Source: Ruminiclostridium cellulolyticum H10 (GTDB taxonomy: Bacteria > Bacillota > Clostridia > Acetivibrionales > DSM-1351). From it: DNA of 64,000 bases. The position numbers and the translations under genes are program-made. Each line of letters opens with the position of its first letter. The first letter of the stretch is position 1. The notes beneath the pieces were generated by a model. It was given only the letters and a program-made list of their open reading frames with translations. It did no database searches and was not told the DNA's origin. The stretch spans positions 1,014,001-1,078,000 of the forward strand of contig NC_011898.1 in assembly GCF_000022065.1 (NCBI RefSeq), in the 5' to 3' direction. Of the stretch, positions 26,801 to 40,230 are shown in pieces.

Positions 26801-27046
26801 GAAATATTCATAAACGAGGGCTTTTCAACCATGGATATACTGCATAAAATCAAAGTTCCGACCCTTGTAGTGGGAGGGGCAAAAGACGTACTCATTGATC
26901 ATGAACAGTTCCAGTTGCTATATTGCAAATTACCTGACTCCAGATATTATGAAATGGCTTCTGCGGGACATGCACCGTTTATCACTCATCACCGTGAGTT
27001 TAACAAGAGGGTTATGACTTTCATAAGAGATAATGAAAAAAGATAG
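20849..27046 (+). CDS. hybrid NRPS-PKS terminal protein: docking-C-A-PCP-KS(His lost)-TE
   Basis: 2065 residues, starting 1 base after the previous stop; Met3 (20855) is an equally possible start. Order: docking helix ~1-35; condensation domain ~45-480 with HHIIYDG at 174-180; adenylation domain ~490-1000 with the YTSGSTGKPKG loop near 665; PCP with Ser1085 (GFDS); KS ~1170-1600; KS flanking subdomain ending YPFAGEKFF; alpha/beta-hydrolase thioesterase from ~1830 with GASWGS (Ser1913), Asp2013 and His2041 as the likely triad. The A-domain pocket, aligned by eye to GrsA, reads D-I-L-Q-C-G-M-I-W-K, close to glycine codes. The KS has Cys1338 (DTACSSS), but the HGTGT region reads EVSGSAT, with Ser1473 in place of His. 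No ACP lies between this KS and the TE, which is unusual. Expected role: add glycine to the polyketide acyl chain and release it. Glycine is an inference; the domain calls are firm. Confidence 0.95.
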   Translation: MSMRYSRKEIYSKVASKQMTVEEAMAYLENLQDSERAQKQPIREEYPLSEGQKGLWVVNQFTPGNYAYNCPIAFKISSDVDIAALKKTFQILIDRHPALRTRIHLVGSGPAQTVMENQEVLFEEKYLDTLADDEIEICVREEARKPFDLECGSLLKVTLFRLPEERMVLLINFHHIIYDGMSFAIFMREFQQIYIALKSGTKYELPDVKATYKDYVYWQQSMLQGEAGARHRDYWLKQLPDGIPAIDLKPDKPRPSVQSLKGSSVVAGIDRELTQSLKNLSVSTDKTLFVIMLSAFNVLLYRYTNQEDICVGTPMLGRPGIKFENVLGYFMNIVVIKSRLNSEYKFYDLVNDVQNTVYDAFDHSDYPVSTLIEEMRKAKMANAQLFQIAFYFQNWMDDLQKDLETGAEGSTGFMDFIPLPGIHQEGEFDLALEILENEKDLSIYFKYSTDIFEEQTIKRMLGHYTEILRYIVKEPSSKISDITLLTQEESNVILKDWNNTFFEYPSDKCVHELFEEQARKTPDAIAVIFEEKSITYGELSKKVTLLAAYLKLYCVEPGILVGIFMERSIEMVISLLAVLKAGGGYVPLDPTYPADRLLYMFEHSKMPILITQSSIEDRLPECKVELVLIDTGWDTIVSESEKIIKDMGDEVFRTSAKPENLAYVIYTSGSTGKPKGVKVIHRGFTNFLCSMAECPGFTDQDYILALTTICFDIAGLEIFLPLIKGGKVEMLPNSIAKDGIKLREKMENSPVTVMQATPATWQMLIAAGWEKKVPIKVLCGGEAMSRELADKLVERASEVWNMFGPTETTIWSSVSLVKANEKVTIGRPIANTQFYVLDELMKPVPAGVAGELYIGGDGLAEGYLNRPDITTEKFVKSPFDNNAIIYKTGDLVCYLPDGNIEYLSRIDHQVKVRGFRIELGEIESALKKIDEIEEAVVVMREETGHKMLVGFLIPKENVELPSKRQIGEMIKKWLPDYMVPASFVFLKSYPMTMNRKVDRKILFTRSIEEITKGFGGSGMNALEKNKASSSKPSTVKTHKTVAKDVNQLLLQLITDDLCKAVAYVIEGNADEIDVHTPLGEYGFDSIRYTTFSVILKQQNTLEFNPSIFVQYPTVESLAEYFFKNNYQTMRSHYAEMLEQMQKEVELQEDENVSNEVSDQGTIRTGTGTITQEPVAIIGIYGKMPGSYDLDTFWGILEKGESVISEIPDDRLELMGLSRKDLKSGAGWGAFIDDVERFDAQFFNMSKIHAEMTDIHQRLFLETAYNTIEDAGYKPSGLAGTKTGVFVGVASSDYGDILKKKGIYGEPYTIEGTSANMVANRVSNVLDLRGPSVAIDTACSSSLVAIHRAAKAVRDGECQIAIAGGVNLLLSGTALEGIAKNGMLSQTGTCRVFDKDADGYVRGEGVGAVLLKPLSKAVEDRDHIYGIIKASAENHCGSGNFIASPNSDARRELLCEAYERAGIGMDTIGLIEVSGSATTLGDSVEVNVLRQAFGENSGAEQASIGLGCVKANVGHLEAASGIASLFKVLLSMKNGKMPSTPGLKEPNPYIEQSNSPFFLLKDGAVWEPKKDVANKPIPRRAAINSFGSGGSNVHIILEQYTDERKSVQKENDLYLVVLSAKDENRLKHYSADLLESIEKNTAKDRDGLNLGDLAYTLQKGRDTMEVRLATVVSSMDELKEKLKAYCSGTQAKNLFTGNARTEKIVKTEADKKRSEEISLEETAATWVLGAEVEWEHLYKSELPYSISLPVYPFAGEKFFVRSKDSGVNKKIAIAGIRKASFEDMFGGYCKALQDKTLSAENTIDVVNEYINGEASRGNILHLFVEISNSSKMEVMVSGKGTPILLISGYAATAPQWFFQFKNWSSNHKLISINTPWHGMSEGIEDVSLAGIAKAYAEVLRELDITEPIHVIGASWGSMIAQQFVADFPEMVKTLTVVGGMCSYKVDDEEKTKEDLKRDFNNINAPKFYDLFMYTSSIKAEATQLNEIFINEGFSTMDILHKIKVPTLVVGGAKDVLIDHEQFQLLYCKLPDSRYYEMASAGHAPFITHHREFNKRVMTFIRDNEKR

Positions 27047-27503
27047 TAAAATTTATTACAAACTTAATTGAAAGGTGAGAAGCCACTTTTGAAGTGAAAT
27101 GCAATCTTTGTAATTAAAAACTGAATAAATAAAGATTAATTCCCTCTCGATATTTTTGTAATAGGAGAAGCAACCCATGCTTGTATTATTAAGATTGGAT
27201 TGTTGGCGGTACAGTTTTTGTTCTATTTTTTAAGAAGACTTGGTTTTAGGTGGTTTTCATCGACTGTAATCGGTGAAAACCCCAGTTTTTGCAAAACCTC
27301 TTCTACATGGTAGAAGCTGAACGTTTCGTACTTAAGTTTGTAAGATTAAATCCCGTATATAGTGTGGAGGGTGGAATTTTTTTAATTGAGCTAGATCATT
27401 CTAAGTAAAAATTTTGTTAGTTTATATACAAAAATGGTAAAATATTATATAATAAAGACGAAATACCAAAATATTAAATCGTTTTAATAAGGAGTTGGCT
27501 GAG
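27047..27503 (+). promoter_or_regulatory. intergenic leader between the two biosynthetic regions, with hairpins
   Basis: A 457-base gap with no convincing gene. It holds an imperfect hairpin at 27252-27281 (11-base arms with one G-T pair, 8-base loop) and a perfect 7-base inverted repeat with a 3-base loop at 27300-27316. A run of five T after the first hairpin could make it a weak terminator of the PKS/NRPS operon. Alternatively the two hairpins form a 5' leader of the following operon. An 18-codon ORF (27177-27233) with an AGGAG site precedes them; it is probably chance. Composition turns markedly AT-rich from about 27330 onward. Confidence 0.4.
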
Positions 27504-27893
27504 ATGTGTGAGAGTAATATTCTTTTCCAAAAAGTAAGGAGTATTGTAATTGAGGCGTTGTCAATTGACCAAGCTGATGACGTAAGTTTAGATTCTTTAC
27601 TTATTCAAGATCTAGGTGCAGAATCTATTGATTTTATTGATATTAGTTTTAGGCTAGAAAAGGAATTTGGAATTGCAAAAGTTAACGCTAATAATATTTT
27701 TCCATTTGCATATCTCCAAAAAGATTTGTTTAATGATACAAATCAGTTAATTCATACAGCGGTTGAAGAAATAAAAGTTAATTATCCCCACATTGACGAC
27801 GAAGTATTTGAAAACGTTTCTAAAAAGTGTGATAAGTTCATGCTCTTTTCTTTACAAGTAATACTAAAATATGTCGAGTATAATGCAAAATGA
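27504..27893 (+). CDS. acyl carrier protein of a discrete (type II-like) system
   Basis: A 129-residue carrier protein with phosphopantetheine site DLGAESIDFID (Ser in the AES motif) and the following helix-2 pattern FRLEKEFGI. The TTG at 27495 is rejected as a start because AAGGAG (27489-27494) would abut it, whereas ATG 27504 sits 9 bases away. The protein is about 45 residues longer than a typical ACP; the C-terminal part (HPHIDD-like region onward) may be a partner-binding extension. It is the first gene of the AT-rich operon, and its stop overlaps the next start by 4 bases (ATGA), indicating translational coupling to the KS. It presumably carries the growing chain for the KS, KR and DH encoded downstream. 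Confidence 0.9.
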   Translation: MCESNILFQKVRSIVIEALSIDQADDVSLDSLLIQDLGAESIDFIDISFRLEKEFGIAKVNANNIFPFAYLQKDLFNDTNQLIHTAVEEIKVNYPHIDDEVFENVSKKCDKFMLFSLQVILKYVEYNAK

Positions 27894-29122
27894 GTAGAAA
27901 AAGAGTTGTCATCTCAGGAATAGGTATAATTAGTCCCATAGGAGATTCAATTGACGATTTTTGGAATGCTGTATTGGACGGTAAAAGTGGTATTAAATAC
28001 TTTTCAGATGAATATAGACACCTAAATATTAATGGAGTTAAAGGTGGTGGCTATATTTCTCGCATTGATTTGAGTAGGTTTGAAATTAGAAAAGACAAAA
28101 TCAGACAGATTAAGGATTCTGAGAAAACAACGAAAATGTTAATTTATGCAGGATTATCAGCTCTTGAGGATGCAGGAATAAAATATCCTCTAGATGTTGA
28201 AAAGTATAATTTAGGCATGATTGTCGGAACAGGAATGTCTTTGGCTGAACGCTATTCGGAAATACCATACTCTGAAAGAAATCCCAAATGGTTTCTTGAA
28301 ACTTACCCAAATATTCATTTAGCATATTTTTCAACAATTACTTCTCTAAAAGGCTTTAGTAGTACAATTGTTACTGCATGTACGGGTGGCAGTCAGGCTA
28401 TAGGTACAGCTTTTAGAATGATTTGCAATGGGGATGCGGATATCATGTTGGCAGGCGGTGTGGATAGTAGATTTTCAACACCATATATATATGGATTTAG
28501 TCGTTTAAATATGATAAATACTGAACAAGATCTCTTAAGTGCAATGCGGCCTTTTGATAGGAATCGAAGTGGTTTTGTTATGGGTGAAGGCAGTTGTATT
28601 CTGGTTATAGAATCACTTGAGCATTGCATGGAAAGAGGAGGAACCGCAATATGTGAAATTGTGGGATATGGAAATGCCTCAGATGCTACCAGTTTAACTG
28701 ACGCTAATTGTCATGGTAAGTATAGAGCTATGGATATGGCTCTTCGTGATGCTGGAATATCGATAGATCAGATTGACTACATTAATTCTCATGGAACATC
28801 AACACAATCAAATGACAGAGAAGAAAGCAAAGCTATTAAGGAGCTTTTTGGAAAGCGAGCATATGACATACCTGTTAACAGTACAAAATCAATTATTGGA
28901 CATACTTTCGCAGCATGTGGAGCCATAGAAGCCGCGGTATGTGCAAAAAGTATACTTTCCGAGAAAATTCACAAAACTTTAAATTTTACTTTAGGTGACA
29001 TATATTGTGATTTAAATTATGTAAAAGATGACGTAATACAAAAAAAGATTGCTTATTGTATCAGTAATAATAGTTCTATTGGGGGATACAATACTTCTTT
29101 GGTCTTTAAAGAAATTGATTAA
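27890..29122 (+). CDS. FabF-like beta-ketoacyl-ACP synthase (KS-alpha-like)
   Basis: 410 residues, the normal length for a KAS I/II enzyme. The active-site Cys is Cys164 (VTACTGGSQ), with catalytic His301 (SHGTST) and His338 (IIGHTF), so all three catalytic residues are present. It should condense malonyl-ACP with the growing acyl-ACP. It overlaps the ACP gene by 4 bases and is followed within 13 bases by a KS-like protein lacking Cys, the arrangement of KS/CLF heterodimers in type II PKS and aryl-polyene systems. Sequence similarity is to FabF rather than to the modular KSs of region 1, so this is not a duplicated module. Its role as the KS-alpha of a heterodimer is inferred from context. 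Confidence 0.9.
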   Translation: MSRKRVVISGIGIISPIGDSIDDFWNAVLDGKSGIKYFSDEYRHLNINGVKGGGYISRIDLSRFEIRKDKIRQIKDSEKTTKMLIYAGLSALEDAGIKYPLDVEKYNLGMIVGTGMSLAERYSEIPYSERNPKWFLETYPNIHLAYFSTITSLKGFSSTIVTACTGGSQAIGTAFRMICNGDADIMLAGGVDSRFSTPYIYGFSRLNMINTEQDLLSAMRPFDRNRSGFVMGEGSCILVIESLEHCMERGGTAICEIVGYGNASDATSLTDANCHGKYRAMDMALRDAGISIDQIDYINSHGTSTQSNDREESKAIKELFGKRAYDIPVNSTKSIIGHTFAACGAIEAAVCAKSILSEKIHKTLNFTLGDIYCDLNYVKDDVIQKKIAYCISNNSSIGGYNTSLVFKEID

Positions 29123-29134
29123 GGGATGATAGGT

Positions 29135-30406
29135 ATGAAGAAAGTTGTTATTACTGGAATGAGTTTAATGAGCATTCTGGCAAACGATAAAAAGGGGCAC
29201 CAAGATATTATTAAACTTGATCAGATGCCCGAAAATAAATTCCCAATAAGCTATTGGGATAATTATTTTGATGGAGAAGTAGGGAGTATACCTTTTTTTG
29301 AACCTAAAGAATTCATAAAGAATCCTAAGTCTATAAAATTTATGAGCAGGCAAACTATTTTGGGGTGTACTGCAGTGGCACAGGTAATACGAGATGCTGA
29401 AATTGACGATAATCAACTTCAAAAAAAACAATTTGAAAATTCTTTGATTTGGGGGGCCGGTGTTAGCGATAGTATTTTTCCTTTACTTCCAGCTGTTATT
29501 GATTGTATTCGAGATGACGGATGCATTGACTATAAGAGCTTGGGAGAGGATGGTTATCGTAATTTACCACCGTTATGGATTCTTAAAAAGCTTCCGAATA
29601 CTACGGCTGGACAAATATCTGTACAGAATTGTATCAGAGGATTAAATTATACAGTAGTAAATGGACCGTTAAGTGGTATATTAGCGTTTTCTATGGCATT
29701 CGAACATATACAAAGTTGCAGGAGCAATTTCACTATATGTGGAGCGGCAGAAGAGCGAACTCATTCAGATTATATTTATTATCTAAAAGAGAAGGGAGTA
29801 ATATCACTCTCAACAAACGGTTTAATGCCATTTGATGAACAAAGTGACGGGGGTTATATTGCAGAAGGTGCTTCGGCATTCATCCTTGAGGATGAAGATT
29901 CGGCTTGTGAAAGAGGTGCAAGAGTGTACGCTCAAGTTTTGGCGTGCAGCAATAGATACTTGCCTCACTTTACAGATAGTGGATATGAATATGCTGCATT
30001 AAAGTTTGAAAAATGTATGCGTACTGCTTTAGAAAATGCAGGAATAACTGCGGAGGACATTGACTTTATTCAGACAAGTGCCTGTGGAGATAAAAGACTG
30101 GATTTTCCAGAGGCTTTGGCTATAAGAAGTATATTTGGGAACAAAGTACCTATTACGTCATGTTCATCTTATTCTGGATACACTCTTGGAGCTTCAGGAG
30201 TTGTATCGCTATCTTATGCAATAATGCAAATGGAACAAAATTTAGTTTTACCAATGAGAAAAACAGAAAATAAATTCTTAGAAGATGAATTAAACTATGT
30301 CGTTGAGCGTTTACAACGGCATAAGAATAATTATGTTTTGATCAATTCGTTTAGCTATATGGGTGATGCTTGTAGTGTAGTCCTAAAACGGGGAGGTGTA
30401 AAATGA
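29135..30406 (+). CDS. KS-like protein without active-site Cys (chain-length-factor-like)
   Basis: 423 residues with the thiolase fold pattern of FabF proteins (start MKKVVITGMS, end SFSYMGDACSVVLKRG). The nucleophile position reads NGPLSG, with Pro178 where the preceding KS has Cys, and the HGTST position reads TSACGDK, so the first His is also lost. These losses, and its place directly after an intact KS, are what is expected of a chain-length factor (KS-beta). ATG 29126 is also in frame but lies directly against AAGGG (29121-29125); ATG 29135 has proper spacing and gives the usual FabF N terminus. Its end overlaps the next gene by 4 bases. It may instead pair with the third KS; the sequence does not settle this. 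Confidence 0.85.
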   Translation: MKKVVITGMSLMSILANDKKGHQDIIKLDQMPENKFPISYWDNYFDGEVGSIPFFEPKEFIKNPKSIKFMSRQTILGCTAVAQVIRDAEIDDNQLQKKQFENSLIWGAGVSDSIFPLLPAVIDCIRDDGCIDYKSLGEDGYRNLPPLWILKKLPNTTAGQISVQNCIRGLNYTVVNGPLSGILAFSMAFEHIQSCRSNFTICGAAEERTHSDYIYYLKEKGVISLSTNGLMPFDEQSDGGYIAEGASAFILEDEDSACERGARVYAQVLACSNRYLPHFTDSGYEYAALKFEKCMRTALENAGITAEDIDFIQTSACGDKRLDFPEALAIRSIFGNKVPITSCSSYSGYTLGASGVVSLSYAIMQMEQNLVLPMRKTENKFLEDELNYVVERLQRHKNNYVLINSFSYMGDACSVVLKRGGVK

Positions 30407-31698
30407 GAGAGGTCGTAGTAACTGGTATGGGTGCAGTTACGCCATTTGGGTTTGGAGTTGATGTCTTATGGAAGGCACTACTAAGTGGTGAAAATGCTAT
30501 TAGGTACTTAGATAGTAGAATTTATCAAGGAGATATCGTAAAGATAGGAGCTCCTCTTCCGGAATTAGACTTTAGACATAGTTTTATTCATGAAGACTAT
30601 TTTGAGATGGTAAAGAATGAAGATAACAATTTAAGGCTGTTTTTTTTGGCTGTATTAGAGGCAATTGGAAAATCGGGAATAGATCCTCGAAATTTGAATG
30701 ACACTGGTCGCATTGGGGTATTTATTGCAGATAGGTATAATAGCCCAATACAGTATTTAGATGATTTTGCTCCCCTACTTCTTAAAGCTAAGGATGACAA
30801 AAACCAAATTAATGAAAAGGTTTTCTTTTCACTTCTAGGAAATTACAACCAGTTGAAACACTATCGAAATTACAATACAAGTGAGAGTATTAATCATTTT
30901 GTATCCAGATTCTATAATATTGAGGGACCGCAATTAAGTATTGGAACAGCTTGTGCATCAAGTAATACAGCTATTGGTGAGGCAGTACATAAGATTATTA
31001 ATAATAAATTAGATATGGCCATTGTTGGAGGAGCATATAATTTGGACCTAAGTGCAATGATTGGCTTTTCTCGTATAGAAGCACTTACAACCAATCCTGA
31101 TCCGGATACTGCGTGTAGACCATTTGATTTAAATAGAAATGGTTTTGTAATGGGAGCAGGATGTGGCATTTTAGTCTTAGAATCTTTAGAATCAGCAAAA
31201 AATCGTAAATGTGACATACTTGCCAAGGTATTAGGGTTCGGAAGCTATACAGATGCTTATCGGTCGACAGATCCCGACCCGACAGCTACAGCAGCTACAA
31301 TGTCTATCCAGTCAGCGCTAAAAATGGCTAAGGTAGATATAAGTGAAATAGATTACATCAATGCACATGGTACTTCGACAAAAATGAATGATTACACAGA
31401 AACTATTGCCATTAAAAATGTATTTGGGGAATATGCAAAAAAAATTCCTGTATCGTCAACAAAGTCTATGATAGGACATTCGATTATGGCAGCTGCCGCC
31501 ATTGAAGCTATTATATGTATTAAAAGCATACAAGATAATGTAATTCATCCTACAAGAAATTATAAGCAGATGGATTTAAATATGGACTTGGATTATGTGC
31601 CAAATGAGCTAAGAGAAGCAAAGGTAAGAAAGGCTTTGTCTAACAGCTTTGGATTTGGTGGAATAAATACAAGTGTAGTGTTTTCTTCCGTGTCCTAA
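30403..31698 (+). CDS. second FabF-like beta-ketoacyl-ACP synthase
   Basis: 431 residues, translationally coupled (ATGA) to the Cys-less KS-like gene. Catalytic residues are intact: Cys184 (GTACASSN), His322 (NAHGTST) and a second His in SMIGHSIMAA. The C terminus has the canonical NSFGFGGINTSVVF motif. A third KS-family protein beside a KS/CLF pair also occurs in aryl-polyene clusters, where separate KSs may serve initiation or particular chain lengths. Whether this one starts chains, extends them at a later stage or forms its own dimer with the Cys-less protein cannot be read from the sequence. The family call is secure. Confidence 0.9.
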   Translation: MREVVVTGMGAVTPFGFGVDVLWKALLSGENAIRYLDSRIYQGDIVKIGAPLPELDFRHSFIHEDYFEMVKNEDNNLRLFFLAVLEAIGKSGIDPRNLNDTGRIGVFIADRYNSPIQYLDDFAPLLLKAKDDKNQINEKVFFSLLGNYNQLKHYRNYNTSESINHFVSRFYNIEGPQLSIGTACASSNTAIGEAVHKIINNKLDMAIVGGAYNLDLSAMIGFSRIEALTTNPDPDTACRPFDLNRNGFVMGAGCGILVLESLESAKNRKCDILAKVLGFGSYTDAYRSTDPDPTATAATMSIQSALKMAKVDISEIDYINAHGTSTKMNDYTETIAIKNVFGEYAKKIPVSSTKSMIGHSIMAAAAIEAIICIKSIQDNVIHPTRNYKQMDLNMDLDYVPNELREAKVRKALSNSFGFGGINTSVVFSSVS

Positions 31699-31725
31699 AA
31701 TCTTATATATGGAGGGATTATAGAA

Positions 31726-32712
31726 ATGAGTTTAAATAGTGAAAGCTTTAATGATTATTATTCTCATTTGAAAGATTATACGCAGATTGTTAAAAATGGA
31801 AACGATATTAGTCTAAGTATCTGCATTGATACAGTTAAGCATCAATATTTGTGTGATCATGTTTTCGGAGGTATGTGCTTTATTCCGGCAACAATGATTA
31901 TGGAATTGCTGATGGAAGCAGCACTATGGTATACACGTGAAATACTTAAAAAAGATGATTTTTTTCCGGTGGGCTTAGATGATATAAATATTGAACGTGC
32001 TCTGACTGTTGCTAAAGGAGAGGCAATTCAGGCTGTAATCAATTTTCAGAAGGTCGTTGATACAAATGGAGAAATTGCTGTTTATTTCATAATTAATTCA
32101 GAAAGAAAGTCTGCTACAGGAGAGAAGGTAGGGACAAGGATAAACACAACGGCTAAAGTAATTCTAGCTAAAGAGTATCCTGCTACTCCTTCAGTAGATT
32201 ATTCAGATGCATTTACAGAAAGATATAATATTCCCCAAGATGTATTCTATAGAGAGTACTTTCCTTCTTTGGGCTTTCTTTTTAATTCTTGTATAGGTAA
32301 AATTGCCTTTGATAGGGAGCAAAGAATATTCTGCGGAGTATACAATTGTAATAGTAAGGAAAAAGAGTTTATCAAAAACGATACATCAGCATTTTTATCG
32401 TCTCCGTTGGGAAACGATTCATGTCTACAATACGCTGTTTTTTTCTCAAGAATACTAGCTTTAAAGGGGAGACTTCCTATAGGTGGCAGGGAGTTGAGAA
32501 TGTTTAAAAAACACCCTGTCAATGGTGAAGTAAAAGTTTTCATAAAATGTATACACTTAGATGATGATATTATGATTTTTGATTTTTATTCATTCGATGA
32601 GACCTCACTTATTGCTTTAGGAAAGGAATTCAAGGTTAAAAAATCGCCATATCACAAAGAGTTGAGCAGGCAAGAATTTGAACTTATTATGAATTTGTAT
32701 AAGGAGGAATAG
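31726..32712 (+). CDS. stand-alone PKS-type dehydratase (double hotdog)
   Basis: 328 residues with the two signatures of polyketide dehydratases. His45 lies in DHVFGGMCFIP, an exact HxxxGxxxxP motif. Asp231 lies in SPLGNDSCLQ, matching the HPxxxDxxxQ motif apart from the first His. Two signatures spaced by about 185 residues match the two halves of a double-hotdog DH such as those inside modular PKSs, unlike the short FabZ/FabA type. It would dehydrate beta-hydroxyacyl-ACP to the 2-enoyl form. With KSs, an ACP and a ketoreductase but no enoyl reductase in the operon, a conjugated polyene is the expected chain. Start ATG 31726 follows a GGAGGG site. Direct evidence is motif-level; the pathway is inference. 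Confidence 0.8.
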   Translation: MSLNSESFNDYYSHLKDYTQIVKNGNDISLSICIDTVKHQYLCDHVFGGMCFIPATMIMELLMEAALWYTREILKKDDFFPVGLDDINIERALTVAKGEAIQAVINFQKVVDTNGEIAVYFIINSERKSATGEKVGTRINTTAKVILAKEYPATPSVDYSDAFTERYNIPQDVFYREYFPSLGFLFNSCIGKIAFDREQRIFCGVYNCNSKEKEFIKNDTSAFLSSPLGNDSCLQYAVFFSRILALKGRLPIGGRELRMFKKHPVNGEVKVFIKCIHLDDDIMIFDFYSFDETSLIALGKEFKVKKSPYHKELSRQEFELIMNLYKEE

Positions 32713-32713
32713 A

Positions 32714-33460
32714 ATGAATGACCTGCTATTTCTTAATGGTATGTATAAAGGAAAAGAGAGTTGGATTAAGCAAATACGGAGTAAAAAGCTGAAAGAAAAT
32801 TATAGGATGATATTTATGGATTATCCGGAATTTGGGACAACTGAAGTACATAAAGAATATATGCATGTAGTAATGGAAAATATATATTCTTTATTACAAA
32901 AACAAAATATAGAGAAGATAAATCTTATAGGCTATTCAATAGGAGGAGTTTTTGCATCATGGTTTGCTTCGTTGTATCCTGAAAAAATAAATTCGTTAGT
33001 ATTAATTAACTCAGGTTTCTATCTAAGTACATATATGAAGGTCATTATAAGGCAATCATTGAAGTTACTACAATCCGAAATAGATTTTTCGATGATTTAT
33101 CCATACATTTCTGTATGGAACTATTCAGAAGAATACCTTGAAAAGATTATCGAACTGCCTAATTATATTAACCCATATTATGATGGGTATAAGGTTAACA
33201 GGAATGTACTATCGGGACTTTTACATATTGCAGACAGGCTTGAAAATTACAAAGGGTGCATAGAGAAAATTAGATGTCCTGTACTAGTTATAGGTGCAGA
33301 AAATGATAGTGTACTTCCCTTCGAAAGACAGCTAAAACTTTTTAAGAATAGAAGTGGTTTTGAAGTTAAGATAGTATCGGGTTCTTCGCATTCAGCCATT
33401 TATGAAAACTCAAATGAGGTTAATGCATATATACAAGAATTTTTAGATAGGTATAACTGA
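32714..33460 (+). CDS. alpha/beta-hydrolase, possible thioesterase
   Basis: 248 residues, starting 1 base after the DH stop, with ATG preceded by AAGGAGG. A nucleophile elbow GYSIGG (Ser near residue 77), Asp in GAENDSVLP and His in GSSHSAIYE form a standard triad of the alpha/beta-hydrolase fold. The N terminus LLFLNGMYKG carries the first strand and oxyanion loop. In this operon it could release or edit acyl chains on the ACP, as a type II thioesterase would, or hydrolyse or cyclise the product. The fold is clear; the substrate is unknown. Confidence 0.75.
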   Translation: MNDLLFLNGMYKGKESWIKQIRSKKLKENYRMIFMDYPEFGTTEVHKEYMHVVMENIYSLLQKQNIEKINLIGYSIGGVFASWFASLYPEKINSLVLINSGFYLSTYMKVIIRQSLKLLQSEIDFSMIYPYISVWNYSEEYLEKIIELPNYINPYYDGYKVNRNVLSGLLHIADRLENYKGCIEKIRCPVLVIGAENDSVLPFERQLKLFKNRSGFEVKIVSGSSHSAIYENSNEVNAYIQEFLDRYN

Positions 33461-33480
33461 TATAAAGAAAGGATACTACT

Positions 33481-34050
33481 ATGAGCAATATTTTATTTTT
33501 CTATGTAGGTAACAGCTACAATGAAAAAAAATTTGATTTATTTAAAAGCCAGCATAATATTTATAGTTTTTTTGACAAACAAAATTGCTCTTCCCCAATT
33601 TTAAGTGATAAATTAGGGTTCACAGTGGATTACTCAAATCCTGATGAATTAAATCAATTAATATCAGAAATATCATCTATTGACCAAATTTTTGTTTTTT
33701 CAAAATTAACAAATTATAAGGAAAAGCTTGAAGAAATGCAGGAAATATTGGATAAGGTTTTTCTCATTTTAAAGGCAGTAACTTTTAAACTAATGTTACA
33801 GAAAAGAGGGAATGTTTGGTTAATGCATGAACAATATTTAGATACCAAGTGCTTATCTTCAGAACTTGGTGCTGGATTGAAATCCTTAATTCAAGTATTT
33901 GCAATGGAAATGTCGAAAAAAGGGATAAAAGCCAATTACATTATACTAAACAGTAATAAAGATAAGGCCAAAGACAAGTTGGAAAATATTATAGAATGGG
34001 GCGAAAGTGATTGTGTCTTTAATTTCACAGCTCAGCAATTAATTATTTAA
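33481..34050 (+). CDS. degenerate short-chain dehydrogenase-like protein
   Basis: 189 residues. The C-terminal half (QYLDTKCLSSELGAGLK followed by FAMEMSKKGIKANYIIL) resembles the SDR region around YxxxK and the strand after it. The N-terminal half lacks the TGxxxGIG cofactor motif and the NNAG motif that the next gene possesses. I therefore read it as a shortened, probably cofactor-free relative of FabG. It directly precedes an intact ketoreductase gene, so a structural partner role is possible. The similarity is faint and judged by eye; it could be an unrelated fold. It is well coupled in the operon (20 bases from the hydrolase, AAAGGA site before ATG 33481), so it is probably functional rather than a decayed gene. 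Confidence 0.55.
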   Translation: MSNILFFYVGNSYNEKKFDLFKSQHNIYSFFDKQNCSSPILSDKLGFTVDYSNPDELNQLISEISSIDQIFVFSKLTNYKEKLEEMQEILDKVFLILKAVTFKLMLQKRGNVWLMHEQYLDTKCLSSELGAGLKSLIQVFAMEMSKKGIKANYIILNSNKDKAKDKLENIIEWGESDCVFNFTAQQLII

Positions 34051-34064
34051 GGGAGGTTTAAATT

Positions 34065-34802
34065 GTGGATGAGAGGGTTGCACTTGTTACCGGAGGAACA
34101 AAGGGCATAGGAGCCGCAATATGCAAACAACTTGCTTTAGAAGGATATTTTGTATATATAAACTATCGGAGAGATACTCCTGAAAAAGATGACTTAATAA
34201 ATGAAATTAGGGCAACGGGTGGAAAAGCTAAGCTTATTTGCTTTGATGTAACTAATATTGATGAAATACAAATTGCTATAAACAGCATTGTGCATGAAAA
34301 AATAGATATCCTAGTAAATAATGCGGGGTTCTTACAGGATGATCTCATTTACAAGATTGAATTAAAAACTTGGCATACAGTTTTAAATACAAATTATTTT
34401 GGACCAGTAAGACTTTTTGAACTAATAAAAGAAAAGCTGCTTAAAGGTGAACGCCCTTCGGTTATTAATATAGGCAGTATTTCAGGAATCAAGCCTCGAG
34501 CGGGTCAAGCTGCTTATGCAGTTTCCAAATCTATGATTATTGAATGGACAAACGTAATGGCAAATACTTACACTAATAAAATTAACTTTTATTGTGTATC
34601 TCCCGGTCCTGTAAAGACACAAATGATTATCCAAACAAAATGGGGAAAGGATCCTAATGCAACAAAACGCATACCTTTAGGGCGTTTTACTGAGCCTGAG
34701 GAGATAGCAAAAATTGTACATTTATTAGACAAAAATAATTTTATACTAAGTGGACAAAACATTGTTTACGATGGCGGTTTTATCAATACTATAATGGAGT
34801 AA
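34065..34802 (+). CDS. FabG-like 3-ketoacyl-ACP reductase (SDR)
   Basis: 245 residues, typical for FabG. Motifs: TGGTKGIG cofactor loop near residue 9, NNAG, Ser in GSISGIKP and YAVSK with the catalytic Tyr and Lys. The C terminus has the SPGPVKT and LSGQNIVYDGG patterns of the family. The start is GTG at 34065, with GGGAGG at 34051-34056; no in-frame ATG is better placed. It should reduce beta-ketoacyl-ACP with NADPH, supplying the hydroxyacyl substrate for the stand-alone dehydratase two genes upstream of the degenerate SDR. A housekeeping role in fatty acid synthesis is less likely given its place inside this operon. Confidence 0.9.
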   Translation: MDERVALVTGGTKGIGAAICKQLALEGYFVYINYRRDTPEKDDLINEIRATGGKAKLICFDVTNIDEIQIAINSIVHEKIDILVNNAGFLQDDLIYKIELKTWHTVLNTNYFGPVRLFELIKEKLLKGERPSVINIGSISGIKPRAGQAAYAVSKSMIIEWTNVMANTYTNKINFYCVSPGPVKTQMIIQTKWGKDPNATKRIPLGRFTEPEEIAKIVHLLDKNNFILSGQNIVYDGGFINTIME

Positions 34803-34846
34803 TATAAAAATATTATATGCTAACGAACAGAAAGTGAGGGGTAACA

Positions 34847-36178
34847 ATGTATGAGATTGATGATGAAGAGTTTTGGAAAATTTATGAAACTAAAAGCTAC
34901 TTGGATATTTTCTACATTAGAAACAAAGTATGGAGAAGTTTAATTCCTGCGCGTCCTCCAATTGGTTCAAGAAATGAAATGATGCAAAAAGAAAATCACT
35001 TTCCAAATAATAAAAACATGCTTTATTTTAACATTCCATTCTGTGCTTCAAGATGTAGCTTTTGTCTTTATTACACAAAGATTTATGAAAGAGAACTTGT
35101 TGATAGGTATTTAGATGCATTGGAAAAAGAGGTAGAAGCTATAAGCAATACTAAATATGTTAAGTCTACGAGGTTTGAGTGTGTCTATTTTGGTGGAGGA
35201 ACTCCTTCCTTGCTTAATGAGAAGCAAATTGACAGAGTAGCAAATATAGTATTTAAGAATTTTCAAGTTACTGATGAACTCGAGATTTCTTTTGAAGCAA
35301 ATCCTTCATCATTAAGTTTAGATAAAGTCATGGCATTAAAAAGAAATAATTTCAATAGAATTAGTTTAGGTATCCAGTCTTTTAATGATAAATATCTTAA
35401 GCAGATGAATTGCAGACATAATTCTAAAGAAGCAAAAGAAGTTATTAATATGCTTTTAGAAAAAGGTTTTAATGTTAACATAGATTTAATCTATGGATTT
35501 CAAGGACAAACAGAAGAAGAACTCCAGATGGATCTTGAAGAAATTTTAAATTTTAAAAATCTCCATCACATAAGTATTTTCCCATTACGACTTGTGACAC
35601 AGACCCCACTTTACAATAAATTAGAGAAACAGCAAGAGCTTAATATTCAAGCACACCAAAATAAAATAGTCAAATATCATGAATGCATAGATAGCTTCTT
35701 CAAAAATAATAGTTATATTTCTGAAGAAGAATCTGTTCATTATTACAAGCGGGGATTCCACCCACATAGATACCAATCCCTTGATGGAAGAATTATTGGT
35801 TTTGGTTCAGGTGCAGGAACTTTGCTTGATAATGTTGAAAGCGGAAATAAATTTGACGTAAATGACTATATTGAAGCAATTAATTCTAAAAATAGTGCTG
35901 CATTTGCAGACTCTGTTATAACAGATGAGCAAATGTATGAGAGGTACATATTATATAGATTGCTATACATGAATAGATCTTTACCTGATTTAAAGGGAAT
36001 AATTGAAAAGCGGTTTTCAGAATTTTATGGAATTGATATAGGCGACAGATATGAAAAAGTGATAGGTCATTTGCTTGCCAAAAAGCTTATAGTGTTAGAT
36101 GGTCAACGTGTTATTTTTACAGACAAATTTTTAAATATTTTAAAAAACTTCAGATTTGGAACACCAAGTGTTATATAG
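34847..36178 (+). CDS. HemN-like radical SAM protein
   Basis: 443 residues. The radical SAM cluster motif CxxxCxxC is at Cys66, Cys70 and Cys73, followed by GGGTP at 116-120 and later family motifs (ISLGIQSFND, LIYGFQGQT). The C-terminal third resembles the HemN_C domain. The fourth Cys found in true coproporphyrinogen dehydrogenase HemN is absent, and no heme biosynthesis gene lies nearby. HemN-like proteins in biosynthetic clusters act as radical SAM methylases or cyclopropanases (Jaw5 in jawsamycin, NosN and C10P/YtkT are known examples). Its position between the ketoreductase and the FabH-like gene suggests it modifies the polyketide, perhaps at its double bonds. The family is certain; the reaction is inference. 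Confidence 0.85.
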   Translation: MYEIDDEEFWKIYETKSYLDIFYIRNKVWRSLIPARPPIGSRNEMMQKENHFPNNKNMLYFNIPFCASRCSFCLYYTKIYERELVDRYLDALEKEVEAISNTKYVKSTRFECVYFGGGTPSLLNEKQIDRVANIVFKNFQVTDELEISFEANPSSLSLDKVMALKRNNFNRISLGIQSFNDKYLKQMNCRHNSKEAKEVINMLLEKGFNVNIDLIYGFQGQTEEELQMDLEEILNFKNLHHISIFPLRLVTQTPLYNKLEKQQELNIQAHQNKIVKYHECIDSFFKNNSYISEEESVHYYKRGFHPHRYQSLDGRIIGFGSGAGTLLDNVESGNKFDVNDYIEAINSKNSAAFADSVITDEQMYERYILYRLLYMNRSLPDLKGIIEKRFSEFYGIDIGDRYEKVIGHLLAKKLIVLDGQRVIFTDKFLNILKNFRFGTPSVI

Positions 36179-36189
36179 GAGAGTTAATT

Positions 36190-37236
36190 ATGGATGGTTT
36201 TTATAGTAGTTTTAAGGATATTTATATGTCAGTACCAGAAATAAGTCTACCTAATGAAGTTATTGATAATGAAGAGGTTATTCAAAGGGTAAAGAATAAT
36301 TTTAAAGGTACAGATGAAGAATTTATTAAAATTAAAAGAGGGTTAGAAAAATCCTTTTATTTTTCTGGCAGCAATACCCGATATTCAGAAGAGTCTGGAG
36401 AAGAAAAGATAGGTATTAATGCAGCAGAAACAGCTAAAAATTTATTAAATAAGATGAATATTTCTCCAAATGAAGTAGACATGGTTATATATGGGAGTGT
36501 TACTAGACCATACTTAGAACCTTCTGTTGCAGCGGAAGTGGCATCTAGATTAGGAGTAAAAAATGCTCATGTTTTTGATGTTAACTGTGCATGTTCTTCA
36601 CTTCTGCAAGCAATATATACGGGAGCGGTTTTCTTAAATTCTCATAAAGAATTGAATTACGTTGTTTGCTGTGCATGTGAGTATCCAATGAGTGCTGTAG
36701 ATTATAATATACAATCTATGAAAGAACTCCTTTTAAAGTCAAGTGCTTTTTCTCTTGGTTCAGCTAGTGCGGCTGTAATTTTAGCAAGAAAGCCCTTTAA
36801 GAATAATGGGTTTAGGTTACATAGTTTTAGAAATAGAACATATACAGATATATGGGATGCTTCTATAACGCCATTGGTAGGTAGCATAGAAACAAATAGT
36901 TTAGTAATAGAAGATGCTATACATGAAATACTGCCAGAGGAAATATATGGACATGTAAAATTTTTAAATTGGAAAATAGAGGACTTAAAACAATTAATTT
37001 TCCATCAGCCAGGAGATTTCTTTATACGATGGGTTATTAATAATTTTCCAGAAGTAAACGAGGAAAAAATATTAAAAGTGCACCAGTATTATGGATATAC
37101 AGCAAGTACAAGTGTATTGCTGGCTCTTGATCATTATATCCAAAATAATACATTAGATAATGGAGATAAAATGCTATTAGTCGTTCCAGGAGCAGGATTA
37201 TCAATTTTAGCGGCAGGAGTAAGTTGGGAAGGGTGA
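36190..37236 (+). CDS. FabH-like (KAS III) protein with altered catalytic Asn
   Basis: 348 residues with the KAS III layout. The nucleophile is Cys135 (DVNCACSSL) and the His is His272 (FHQPGDF). The third catalytic position, normally Asn in the YGNTSAAS motif, reads YGYTAST, with Tyr303. True FabH needs the Asn for decarboxylative condensation; relatives with a changed third residue (CerJ-type) transfer acyl groups to O or N nucleophiles instead. Here it could prime the ACP, transfer an acyl group from the ACP to another molecule, or initiate with an unusual mechanism. It starts 11 bases after the radical SAM stop, with AGGAGAG upstream. Confidence 0.8.
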   Translation: MDGFYSSFKDIYMSVPEISLPNEVIDNEEVIQRVKNNFKGTDEEFIKIKRGLEKSFYFSGSNTRYSEESGEEKIGINAAETAKNLLNKMNISPNEVDMVIYGSVTRPYLEPSVAAEVASRLGVKNAHVFDVNCACSSLLQAIYTGAVFLNSHKELNYVVCCACEYPMSAVDYNIQSMKELLLKSSAFSLGSASAAVILARKPFKNNGFRLHSFRNRTYTDIWDASITPLVGSIETNSLVIEDAIHEILPEEIYGHVKFLNWKIEDLKQLIFHQPGDFFIRWVINNFPEVNEEKILKVHQYYGYTASTSVLLALDHYIQNNTLDNGDKMLLVVPGAGLSILAAGVSWEG

Positions 37237-37243
37237 TATCCTT

Positions 37244-38935
37244 ATGATAGATATACTTAAGGTGTTAGTAAATAACATTAATGTAGAGCTTTTTGATAAA
37301 TCAAAAAAAAATATTCTATTTGAAATAAAAGATAATAGTCATACTTTTCAATATTGGTTAAGATTTAAAGATCAGATAGAAATATATGAAGGAATCCCCA
37401 GTAATGCAGATATTATCATTAAAGGAGAAAAAGAGGTTTTCAAATCTATAGCAAATGGAGATATAACCTACCCTAGCTTTCTGATTCAAAATTTGTTGAC
37501 TATTGAGGGTAATGGTGATGCATTTAGTTTTGTAAAAAAACTATTTAAACCTTCAAATGCTATAGATATTTGGTCTGCTAAAAAAATAATAGAAACACAA
37601 AATGAATTGTTAAAAACAGAGGAAATGACAAGAAATGAAATTATTAAAATGCAAAGGGAAAAACTAGATAAGCTTATTAGGTATGCCATTGGAAACAGCG
37701 ATTTTTATAGAAATCTCTATAAAGATATTGACCTAGATAACTATACTTTAGAGTCTCTTCCAGTAATAAATAAGAAGATGGTTATGCAGAACTTTGATAA
37801 AATAATCACTGATAAACGATTGAAACTTGAAGAGATTTATCCATATATCTATGACACTAATTCAGAAGAAAAGTTCTATAAGGATGAATTTATTGCCACT
37901 ACATCTTCAGCAACTACAGGTATTCCTGGTGTATTTGTATATAATAAAGATTCATGGTTACTTAGTATTTTAAGTCAGCATAGAAGTAGTAGGCAACGTA
38001 TGAAGAATAGAACTGTCATTCCCAAAATGGCACTAGTCAGTACTACTAGTATCACAGCATCATCACACAATTCTGTGAGGCTCTATCCGACGCATATAAT
38101 GCAAACAAAAACTTTTTCAATGATAGATTCAATAGAAGATATTGTTTCAGGTTTAAATGAATACCAGCCTCATATTTTAACGGGATATCCCACTGCATTA
38201 TATTCTTTAGCATTGGAACAACAGTCTGGTAAACTGAATATTCGCCCATGGTGGATAAATACATTTGGAGAGCAGCTAGGCTATATGAGAACCACGATAG
38301 AAAAAGCATTTGGTTCAGAGATATTTGATACATATCAAACAACTGAAACTATGAATATAGCATGGGAATGTGAACAACATCAAGGCTTGCATATAAATTC
38401 TGATCTTGTAATTATAGAATCTGTTGACAAAGACAATAAACCTGTGAAGGATGGAGAAATTGGGGAAAAAGTATTAGTAACAAATTTGTTCAATTATACT
38501 CAACCTCTTATAAGGTACGAGCTTTATGATATCATAAGTTTAAGTAAGAAAGAATGCTTGTGTGGTAGTCCATTTCCTGTCATTGAACGTCTGGAAGGCC
38601 GTGTTGAAGACTTCCTGACTTTATTATCCGGAGAGAGAATTATTAAGTTAAATCCACTTACAGTTGCTGCAATAATGAATGAGATCAGAGGGGTAAATAT
38701 GTGGCAGTTTGTGCAAAGTGATTTTAAGCATGTTTTAATAAATATTGTTACAGTTGAGCCCCAATATGCTGATTTATTTAAGGAATGCTTTATTAATAAG
38801 GTTTTAAAACCAAATAATATAGATGAAGGCACTATTGTTGAAATCAAAAACGTGAGTAGCATTAAGCCTATAAATAGTTCTGGCAAGATACAGAGTTTTA
38901 TTAATTACATTAATCGGGAAGGAGTTAAAGTATGA
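37244..38935 (+). CDS. SCP2-like domain fused to PaaK-like adenylate-forming ligase
   Basis: 563 residues. Residues ~1-105 match the pattern of SCP2 sterol-carrier domains (ADIIIKGEKEVFKSIANGD, then LTIEGNGDAFSFVKKLF), a fold with a hydrophobic tunnel for acyl chains. From ~125 on, the protein resembles phenylacetate-CoA ligase (PaaK): phosphate loop TSSATTGIPG near 216-226, YQTTET in the adenylate motif region, and a PaaK-type C-terminal domain. It would activate a carboxylic acid as an adenylate and load it on CoA or the ACP; the SCP2 part may present a hydrophobic acid. It is a candidate for supplying an aryl or fatty acyl starter unit. The fusion is visible in a single unbroken frame. Substrate unknown. 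Confidence 0.8.
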   Translation: MIDILKVLVNNINVELFDKSKKNILFEIKDNSHTFQYWLRFKDQIEIYEGIPSNADIIIKGEKEVFKSIANGDITYPSFLIQNLLTIEGNGDAFSFVKKLFKPSNAIDIWSAKKIIETQNELLKTEEMTRNEIIKMQREKLDKLIRYAIGNSDFYRNLYKDIDLDNYTLESLPVINKKMVMQNFDKIITDKRLKLEEIYPYIYDTNSEEKFYKDEFIATTSSATTGIPGVFVYNKDSWLLSILSQHRSSRQRMKNRTVIPKMALVSTTSITASSHNSVRLYPTHIMQTKTFSMIDSIEDIVSGLNEYQPHILTGYPTALYSLALEQQSGKLNIRPWWINTFGEQLGYMRTTIEKAFGSEIFDTYQTTETMNIAWECEQHQGLHINSDLVIIESVDKDNKPVKDGEIGEKVLVTNLFNYTQPLIRYELYDIISLSKKECLCGSPFPVIERLEGRVEDFLTLLSGERIIKLNPLTVAAIMNEIRGVNMWQFVQSDFKHVLINIVTVEPQYADLFKECFINKVLKPNNIDEGTIVEIKNVSSIKPINSSGKIQSFINYINREGVKV

Positions 38936-39705
38936 GTGCTTTTACATATTCTGACTTAATAAGCAGAAATTATGCATATATTAACGAGGAGCTTCAGACG
39001 AAAATAAAGCAGACTAGACTAGTGTTCATTGGATGTGGTTTATCAAGTGGAATAGTAGAAGATTTTGCTCGAATTGGATTTACAAAATTTGTGCTTATCG
39101 ATTTTGATGTAGTTGAATTGTCAAATATGAACCGACAGCACTACTATTTTAATGAAGTTGGATTAAATAAATGTGAAGTACTAAAAGGAAAGGTTATAGA
39201 AATTAACCCTGAAGCAAAAGTAGAAGCGATTAACAGAAAAATTTCTGGAGCAAAAGATATCGACTGGTTGCTTTGTAATGCGGATATTGTTATTAATACA
39301 ATTGATTTTGGTGAGGACTATTTTAATTTAGTTTCACAAGCACAAAAAAAGGGAGTATTAGCTATTTGCCCTTTGAATCTTGGTTTTGGAGGAATGATTA
39401 CATGTTTTAATAAATACTCAGGGACTTTTTATGATTTACTTGGAGTTGAACAACCTGAGACACGTACGGATTACTATTTGCGTCTTTTTGTTAGAAATAG
39501 AGATAAGTTGAAGATTGCGGAGTATTTTTATAAGAATCTTATACAACTGACTAATAGAATTCAACAAAAAGGATATCAACCACAGATGTGTATAGGTGCA
39601 AATATCGTATCTGCTTTAATAATAACTACTGTTGTTAAATATCTAAATAATGATAGAATATCGTTAGCACCGGAAATCATTTATAAAGATTTTTTCAGTA
39701 TTTAA
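38932..39705 (+). CDS. ThiF/MoeB/E1-like adenylating protein
   Basis: 257 residues, overlapping the ligase gene by 4 bases. The Rossmann ATP loop is IGCGLSSG (33-40), followed by the diagnostic acidic and SNxNRQ segment at 57-69 (Asp57, Asp59, Asn65, Arg68), and Lys80. The paired CxxC zinc motifs found in many ThiF/MoeB proteins are not seen. This family adenylates a carboxyl group, usually the C terminus of a small protein or peptide, for thiocarboxylate, amide or cyclic product formation (ThiF, MoeB, MccB, TcdA). It is the last gene of the operon; its target here is unknown. One candidate is the short ORF 112 bases downstream. Confidence 0.8.
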   Translation: MSAFTYSDLISRNYAYINEELQTKIKQTRLVFIGCGLSSGIVEDFARIGFTKFVLIDFDVVELSNMNRQHYYFNEVGLNKCEVLKGKVIEINPEAKVEAINRKISGAKDIDWLLCNADIVINTIDFGEDYFNLVSQAQKKGVLAICPLNLGFGGMITCFNKYSGTFYDLLGVEQPETRTDYYLRLFVRNRDKLKIAEYFYKNLIQLTNRIQQKGYQPQMCIGANIVSALIITTVVKYLNNDRISLAPEIIYKDFFSI

Positions 39706-39817
39706 GAGACTTTAAGGTATTAGCTGCTAGGGAATTAATTTCACTTGACAGTATCTGAATATGTTGGGAAACATCTCCTCTGGACAATAATTAAATTGTA
39801 AGGAGGAGTTTTAAATT

Positions 39818-39892
39818 ATGATAGCAAAAGATCGTATAGTTAAAAACAAAATGATCCCGATTGAATTGGCTGAATATCTTCAAATACAGTAA
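39818..39892 (+). CDS. possible 24-residue peptide
   Basis: ATG at 39818 is preceded by AAGGAGGAG (39800-39808) at 9 bases, one of the strongest ribosome sites in the window. The peptide is 24 residues, starts MIAKDRIVKN and ends in YLQIQ, with no Cys. It resembles no family I can name. It may be a leader peptide, the truncated remnant of a larger gene, or a real substrate of the neighbouring adenylating protein (MccB in microcin C biosynthesis acts on a very short peptide, but its gene order and sequence differ). Expression is unproven. Confidence 0.35.
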   Translation: MIAKDRIVKNKMIPIELAEYLQIQ

Positions 39893-40051
39893 CCTTCTTT
39901 ATTACCACCAAAGAACGCAGCTTTTAATGTAATTTAACCCATATTATAAATCAAATCTACGCAAGGTTATTTTAGGTCAAATTTCTTGCAAATACTGTAC
40001 TTTCAGCCTCTAAGGGAGTAAATTTTAACATTTCATTTTACTCATTAGCAA

Positions 40052-40080
40052 TTGTTTTACTTATGAGCTTATTATATAAT
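40052..40080 (+). promoter_or_regulatory. putative sigma-70 promoter for the MFS exporter
   Basis: TTGTTT (40052-40057), a spacer of 17 bases and a perfect TATAAT (40075-40080). It lies about 150 bases upstream of the exporter gene and upstream of the TetR-type palindrome. Confidence 0.45.
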
Positions 40081-40190
40081 CCTATGTGAAGCAAGCAATG
40101 GGATTTGATTCTTCAAACAATAATTCCCAAAAAGTAAGAGAGCCATAATATGGAGATAATAGTAGAAGTCGATTCGTACTCTTCCTTAGA

Positions 40191-40213
40191 AATTGACTGA
40201 ACAGTCATCAATT
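40191..40213. promoter_or_regulatory. TetR-type operator palindrome
   Basis: The core TGACTG-AA-CAGTCA (40194-40207) is a perfect inverted repeat, and the flanks AATTGA/TCAATT extend the symmetry loosely. This form is common for TetR-family operators in clostridia. It sits 18 bases before the exporter start, fitting repression of an efflux gene. No TetR gene is found within the window. Confidence 0.55.
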
Positions 40214-40230
40214 ATACAAACATACGCAGA

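Follow-up and report, generated by a model that had tools for sequence, protein, structure and literature searches.

In the genome of Ruminiclostridium cellulolyticum H10, a single contig of 4,068,724 bases, we analysed a window of 64,000 bases (bases 1014001–1078000; positions below count from its first base). Twelve plus-strand genes at 27504–39705, with intergenic gaps of −4 to 44 bases, form an operon that is a variant of the highly reducing type II polyketide synthase (PKS) with type I-like parts, and a radical S-adenosylmethionine (SAM) protein accompanies its core in three of four loci. The initial annotation had described twelve tightly packed genes with particular domains and a highly reducing type II-like composition. 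The former is confirmed by the gaps and by matches to the Pfam and NCBIfam models used for domain assignment of the twelve proteins. The latter also stands: a ketosynthase (KS) with a chain-length factor (CLF), a ketoreductase (KR) and a dehydratase (DH) were found, and no dedicated enoyl reductase (ER) among the twelve scanned proteins. The genes are as follows (ACP, acyl carrier protein; SDR, short-chain dehydrogenase/reductase).

27504–27893, plus strand: ACP of 129 residues (PF00550, E 3.8e-06)
27890–29122, plus strand: KS1, elongating ketosynthase (alpha subunit), Cys–His–His kept in all four loci, own clade
29126–30406, plus strand: CLF-like KS partner, without the Cys and both catalytic His residues, own clade
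30403–31698, plus strand: KS2, second ketosynthase, Cys–His–His intact
31726–32712, plus strand: stand-alone double-hotdog PKS dehydratase, His45/Asp231
32714–33460, plus strand: alpha/beta hydrolase, thioesterase-like candidate, GYSIG motif
33481–34050, plus strand: catalytically dead SDR, motifs lost, SDR fold; proposed structural KR partner (psi-KR)
34065–34802, plus strand: FabG-like ketoreductase, TGG..GIG and YxxSK intact
34847–36178, plus strand: HemN-like radical SAM protein, CX3CX2C, two-SAM site as in class C methylases
36190–37236, plus strand: FabH-like thiolase-fold protein, Cys135 and His272 present, triad Asn replaced by Tyr303
37244–38935, plus strand: SCP2 domain (PF02036) fused to a PaaK/F390 synthetase-like adenylate-forming enzyme (TIGR02304)
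38932–39705, plus strand: ThiF/MccB-type E1-like adenylating enzyme (PF00899, 96 bits)

We propose that the core is an iterative highly reducing PKS whose separate proteins resemble a type I reducing module in pieces, the type I-like parts being the double-hotdog PKS DH and the KR with its detached structural SDR half. KS1 and the CLF would extend malonyl units on the ACP, and in each cycle the KR and DH would leave one double bond which, with no ER, would give a polyenoyl-ACP. KS2 would prime or boost elongation, by analogy with ApeR of the aryl polyene pathway. The HemN-like enzyme, using two SAM molecules, could place a one-carbon (C1) unit on an sp2 carbon of the chain, either as a methyl group or as a methylene leading to a ring. 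The FabH-like (by acyl transfer), PaaK-like and E1-like proteins would modify or activate the acyl group, and the acyl-ACP would most likely be passed to CcelA, the adjoining trans-acyltransferase (trans-AT) PKS and nonribosomal peptide synthetase (NRPS) line. This model is built on sequences and models, with the KS1–CLF heterodimer a predicted one, and we give it, taken as a whole, an even chance.

KS1 and KS2 keep the Cys–His–His residues, and the CLF lacks all three, in each of the four loci. A grouping of the KSs with FabF would have counted against the initial reading, but a 49-row tree separates KS1, CLF and KS2 from the FabF-like rows. The KS1, CLF and KS2 clades have support values of 100/100, 100/99 and 100/100, respectively, and the joint group of KS1 and KS2 (95/96) excludes all 29 clostridial FabF-like rows, 28 of which are the best CLF matches from genomes of the order, their FabF identity being presumed. 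The tree has long branches and few outside references, and resolves deeper kinship poorly. For both KSs the best NCBIfam models are FabF-type, though below cut-off (347.8 of 387 bits for KS1 and 362.9 of 493.75 bits for KS2), as would be expected if the operon were an additional type II fatty acid synthase with ordinary chemistry. Such a synthase is nevertheless very improbable in view of the clades separate from FabF-like proteins, the inactive CLF, the PKS-type DH, the radical SAM protein and the lack of an ER and of FabZ; a plain duplicate was rejected on the KS tree and the gene content. The CLF profile gave a strong full-length match to a solved chain (9s5h, chain C). In vitro, the aryl polyene KS–CLF pair alone yields the full polyene and the second KS increases throughput (PMC8358021; this and all other papers are cited for the part of their text that was available), and by analogy KS1/CLF and KS2 may plausibly work in the same way. 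Three further genomes of the order (L014, L021 and L024) encode KS-like proteins whose active-site stretch does not fit a simple Cys pattern; they form a clade of their own and are possible CLF-like partners elsewhere.

The other core proteins also carry distinct features. The ACP has a C-terminal extension of about 60 residues in the four loci, with an invariant Pro-His, and the ESIDF sequence around its Ser is invariant across the loci. The predicted models of the DH and the dead SDR were compared with known folds by VIA-align. The DH model matches PKS dehydratases, that is, the fold of a type I PKS DH domain, and the catalytic His and Asp are invariant among the core loci; aryl polyene dehydratases are single-hotdog proteins. 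The dead SDR has neither the NADP motif nor the catalytic motif, and its model has the FabG fold. The KR also matches adh_short_C2, with the ketoreductase models scoring best. The N-terminus of the window hydrolase is shorter than in its relatives. In the Spirochaetales locus, the nucleophilic Ser of one of the two hydrolases (L053:14597–15436) is replaced by Cys (AYCVG).

The initial annotation treated the twelve genes as a single unit, and this did not survive comparison with other genomes. Eight genes (ACP, KS1, CLF, KS2, DH, hydrolase, dead SDR and KR) are present in all four loci, which lie in two Ruminiclostridium genomes (the window and L039 of genome G019), a Bacteroidales metagenome-assembled genome (MAG; L052) and a Spirochaetales MAG (L053). 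The HemN-like gene stands beside this core in three of them, the Spirochaetales locus being the exception, and tblastn gave zero matches to the FabH-like, SCP2-PaaK and ThiF-like proteins in the three core loci other than the window. The nine-gene order is the same in the window and the Bacteroidales locus. In G019 the hydrolase lies at a different position, and in the Spirochaetales locus KS1 comes last, the ACP is followed by two extra genes, and the DH and hydrolase are duplicated. Identities to the window proteins in the G019, Bacteroidales and Spirochaetales loci are, in that order, 51, 48 and 53% for KS1, 58, 53 and 52% for KS2, about 41–42, 41 and 38% for the CLF, 48, 44 and 52% for the KR, 42, 38 and 31% for the DH, and 24, 22 and 29% for the dead SDR; for the radical SAM protein they are 43% in G019 and 42% in Bacteroidales.

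The core family is rare among the sampled genomes. A two-row DH profile matches two of 391 Clostridia genomes, the H10 genome included. With four rows, the profile matches one of 398 Bacillota genomes (H10 itself, in a sample that overlaps the 391 Clostridia in part), one of 395 Bacteroidota genomes (the Bacteroidales core locus itself) and six of 296 Spirochaetota genomes. A stand-alone pair occurs in one of these six, the Spirochaetales core locus itself; the other five matches are weaker and lie within frames of 910–2863 codons. When 58 genomes of the order were queried with the CLF, 38 matched at E 1e-25, with H10 and G019 alone standing out and the others at only 26–31% identity. The Bacteroidales and Spirochaetales loci were found through a CLF peptide-pattern scan of a species-genome collection (47 pattern matches, two confirmed). 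Scans of this kind require short exact peptides, and distant relatives and records near the own genome may escape them. Within that reach, the CLF scan of viral contigs and the DH scan of plasmids gave no relative, and the DH scans confirmed none of 109 pattern matches in species-genome contigs and none of 291 in viral contigs.

Beside the core, the Bacteroidales MAG (L070:2912–17503 and L052:1–7462) carries a second KS pair and FabZ-like, SDR, FabD-like and PfaD-like ER genes, together with a KS–ACP–condensation–adenylation line whose end is nitroreductase-like, and with LuxE, FAAL-ACP and an AT-like gene; part of these names were assigned by sequence look alone. Long FMN reductase/flavodoxin-like proteins of 460–493 residues lie beside the core in two of the four loci (L053:7250–8731 and L039:995–3792).

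The HemN-like radical SAM protein has its Cx3CxxC motif at residues 66, 70 and 73. Its best NCBIfam model is HutW, a class C methyltransferase family, at 202 bits and below the cut-off of 400, and among plasmid records the best 25 of 95 rows are HemW, HemN, STM4012-type, other radical SAM and unnamed proteins at about 25–35% identity. We compared it with the residue map of SAM-I and SAM-II contacts of NocN (PMC13266988). The SAM-II contacts Tyr34, Tyr96, Arg153, Asp196 and Ser225 are kept in all three homologues (Ser225 as S/T/T), as is Arg230, which is absent from HemN and four HemN/HemW-type controls. Four observations weigh against the C1 transfer proposed for this protein. First, the five HemN/HemW-type controls themselves keep Tyr34, Arg153 and Asp196 throughout, Ser225 in four cases and Tyr96 in two. 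Second, NocN Arg171, which forms the SAM-I salt bridge, is an invariant Cys (Cys189) in the three homologues; this position is Arg in four of the five controls, HemN included. Third, the catalytic Tyr276 of NocN is not kept in the operon's protein. Finally, the Spirochaetales genome lacks a close radical SAM relative, its best match reaching 119.5 bits, compared with 610.4 bits in the Bacteroidales MAG. Since the controls share most of the SAM-II residues, the site indicates two-SAM binding and not methylase function. From the residue pattern we infer that the enzyme may bind two SAM molecules and transfer a C1 unit.

The kept two-SAM site and the absence of a dedicated ER would also suit a cyclopropanase acting in every cycle, with a polycyclopropanated acyl chain as the product and the operon as a discrete-subunit counterpart of the jawsamycin and fuelimycin synthases. 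Except for the AT, the functional set equals that of a polycyclopropanating iterative PKS (iPKS; PMC13389473). However, the Jaw5-type motif is stated as Cx7CxxC in the same source and the operon protein has Cx3CxxC, while class C enzymes are equally known to methylate or to form lactones (PMC13266988). In addition, the gene is absent from the Spirochaetales core, and the likeness is one of description, not of cyclopropanase sequences. We therefore hold this function to be unlikely, if worth keeping in view. That the loci form an anaerobic, discrete-subunit polycyclopropanating family across Clostridia, Bacteroidales and Spirochaetales, with a strained acyl chain handed to a trans-AT PKS line, is decidedly improbable.

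Regarding the last three genes, Asn is a member of the catalytic triad of FabH. In alignments to 2ebd and 3row, Cys135 and His272 of the FabH-like protein are conserved, and Tyr303 occupies the position of this Asn; because of this replacement, the protein's sequence suggests acyl transfer more than decarboxylative condensation. It scores 65.1 bits with FabH 2ebd and 57.5 bits with 3row and its kin, which we take to be OleA. OleA-type chemistry was considered and rejected, as the Asn seen in both 2ebd and 3row is lost. The PaaK-like part scores 120.8 bits with TIGR02304, below the cut-off of 251.9, and the closest solved chains to the ThiF-like protein are 9egc and 9egb, with MccB after them. 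The ThiF and PaaK pair recurs in G019 beside a different ACP–KS cluster. This second cluster of that genome, a minus-strand mini-cluster (L097:8029–14305), holds ACP, KS, acyltransferase-like, PP-loop, ThiF-like, PaaK-like and metallo-beta-lactamase-like genes, named by sequence look, with the KS, ThiF and PaaK names backed by matches; E1, PaaK and PP-loop proteins make up a possible tailoring set. In the three core loci other than the window, a PP-loop protein is nearest to the WbuX model (154–164 bits, cut-off 203.2), and its companions are LuxE and FAAL in Bacteroidales, LuxE in Spirochaetales and asparagine synthase in G019; the window has PaaK and E1. Each locus therefore has a carboxyl-activating or amidating set of its own.

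Both reverse-transcription quantitative PCR primers for AKS1 of CcelA, a cluster published under the species' earlier name Clostridium cellulolyticum (PMC3250452), have exact matches within the first KS of the trans-AT PKS upstream. The operon therefore lies directly downstream of CcelA, whose last PKS gene ends at 27046. The features that surround the operon are the following.

3–16541, plus strand: CcelA trans-AT PKS protein, whose start lies before the window (no Pfam scan at such length)
16525–20847, plus strand: CcelA PKS protein
20849–27046, plus strand: last CcelA protein, condensation–adenylation–thiolation–KS with an alpha/beta hydrolase (thioesterase-like) domain
27252–27281, plus strand: terminator-like hairpin between the CcelA PKS and the operon (one found, 0.3 expected)
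27425–27453, plus strand: promoter-like site 5' of the operon, TATACA-17-TATAAT
40231–41553, plus strand: major facilitator superfamily (MFS) transporter, possible exporter (PF07690)

CcelA is printed as YP_002505201-26, a trans-AT PKS/NRPS of 26 proteins and 16 KS domains (PMC3250452). Upstream of the operon we counted 14 genes, from a NusG-like gene through the last PKS gene, and 14 type I KSs. The operon was probably counted within CcelA in 2012, since 14 plus 12 genes make 26 and the 14 KSs plus KS1 and KS2 make 16. The NusG-like gene that heads CcelA (L074:12742–13263) is, we presume, perhaps a LoaP-type antiterminator. The available part of the CcelA account makes no mention of a type II-like part, and it reports silent or basal expression in standard culture for the PKS clusters tested in R. 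cellulolyticum (PMC3250452). Among the titles and abstract openings listed from the open-licence literature, outside which most subscription papers fall, we found no description of the operon's gene set, and we found no reported product of CcelA. In the available text of PMC8222398, PMC6694145 and PMC11747023, closthioamide is the sole compound discussed where the species is named. Within the literature so covered, the proposal of an undescribed system stands for the gene set, but the region itself adjoins CcelA and was probably counted in it (PMC3250452).

Within the proposed model, we rate the hand-over of the acyl chain to CcelA as somewhat better than even. In the first CcelA protein, a KS starts at residue 29 with no recognised loading domain ahead of it; the motifs of this KS are DAACASS, HGTGT and NIGH, with the Cys and His residues intact. 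The Bacteroidales assembly line likewise opens with a KS at residue 29. The alternative is that the operon is an independent pathway beside CcelA that makes its own unsaturated acyl compound: the hydrolase would release the chain, the PaaK-like, E1-like and FabH-like proteins would join a partner to it and the MFS transporter would export it. This is a serious possibility, though we would place it below even. The missing loading domain, the discrete ACP directly after the cluster and the adjoining genes on one strand argue against it, and the following results favour it and count against a hand-over. The operon has a GC content of 0.327, against 0.426 for the PKS part of the window and 0.375 for the DNA downstream, and the profile over 27000–40500 runs at about 0.44 in the PKS and about 0.30–0.36 across the operon, and is higher again beyond. 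A test for shared origin or co-transfer failed on GC, and given this mismatch the operon and CcelA were probably not acquired as one piece. The terminator-like hairpin and the promoter-like site separate CcelA from the operon, which would thus have such sites of its own; as ten promoter-like sites were found against 4.0 expected in an AT-rich stretch, the operon's site is weak evidence. No type I PKS was seen in the flanks read in G019 and the Spirochaetales MAG, as judged from the starts of open reading frames without Pfam, so the core seems independent of one. In the Bacteroidales cluster, the second KS pair and FAAL-ACP could prime the line, and each of the four core loci comes with a different set of acyl-activating or amidotransfer enzymes.

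A fixed pairing of the first CcelA module with the operon was rejected: the module occurs in three of 58 genomes, and the CLF has no standout match in two of them, G029 and G031. The region after the first CcelA KS is found in the H10 genome and in these two (31–40% identity). The first CcelA KS (L075:3301–6540) has an unusual active-site stretch, DAACASSSTALHEA, and no Pfam model matches the roughly 550 residues beyond its linker.

If the proposed model is correct, the operon would represent a further reducing PKS architecture in which type II logic is run by a type I-like DH and a split KR, with radical C1 transfer possibly on the growing chain. The extended ACP, the dead SDR and the inactive CLF provide markers for finding relatives that searches with FabF would fail to set apart. 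Both the chemistry and the hand-over are open to knock-outs and in vitro reconstitution, the host being a model cellulolytic anaerobe for which genome editing has reportedly been published.

Finally, we compared the operon with known systems. It shares the KS/CLF, ACP, KR and DH and the lack of an ER with ishigamide-type highly reducing type II PKSs (PMC10698177), a likeness judged by composition, as the KS tree shows separation from FabF-like rows only. Two defining features of the highly reducing type II class are found, namely an active-Cys KS with a Cys-less CLF (four of four loci), discrete ACP, KR and DH, and no ER. In contrast to the ishigamide type, the operon also has the double-hotdog DH, the dead SDR, a second full KS, the extended ACP and the HemN-like radical SAM protein. 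Aryl polyene synthases share the KS–CLF pair and a second, homodimeric KS (ApeO–ApeC and ApeR; PMC8358021). Unlike them, the operon has a radical SAM protein, and membership was rejected since no ammonia-lyase is among the twelve genes; aryl activation by the PaaK-like ligase is conceivable. The cispentacin synthase AmcF–AmcG is likewise a type II KS whose partner is non-functional, acting on a discrete ACP (PMC10698177), but KS1 and KS2 score 171.5 and 196.2 bits with the AmcF model, under its cut-off of 325.

The initial annotation had noted parts shared with loci proposed for ladderane lipids. Anammox clusters do have FabF paralogues with degenerate active sites and radical SAM genes (PMC2649909), and both kinds of gene are common to the two systems. 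However, this overlap is generic, and FabZ, a phytoene desaturase-like protein and a B12-radical SAM protein were not recognised among the operon proteins. TIGR04072 scores 30.3 bits where its cut-off is 360, and the host does not belong to the anammox bacteria. A ladderane-type lipid pathway is exceedingly improbable, and membership was rejected on the unrecognised defining partner genes. The class C methylases (NosN/NocN, C10P, HutW and CoeI) share the SAM-II residues and Arg230 with the radical SAM protein, which differs in having Cys189 for NocN Arg171 and in not keeping Tyr276; CoeI also works on a type II polyketide (PMC9714029). Lastly, the polycyclopropanating iPKSs of jawsamycin and fuelimycin share the KS, DH, ACP, discrete KR, discrete HemN-like enzyme and thioesterase (PMC13389473), but they use a multidomain KS-AT-DH-ACP protein, whereas the operon encodes these parts in separate open reading frames, with a CLF and no AT.

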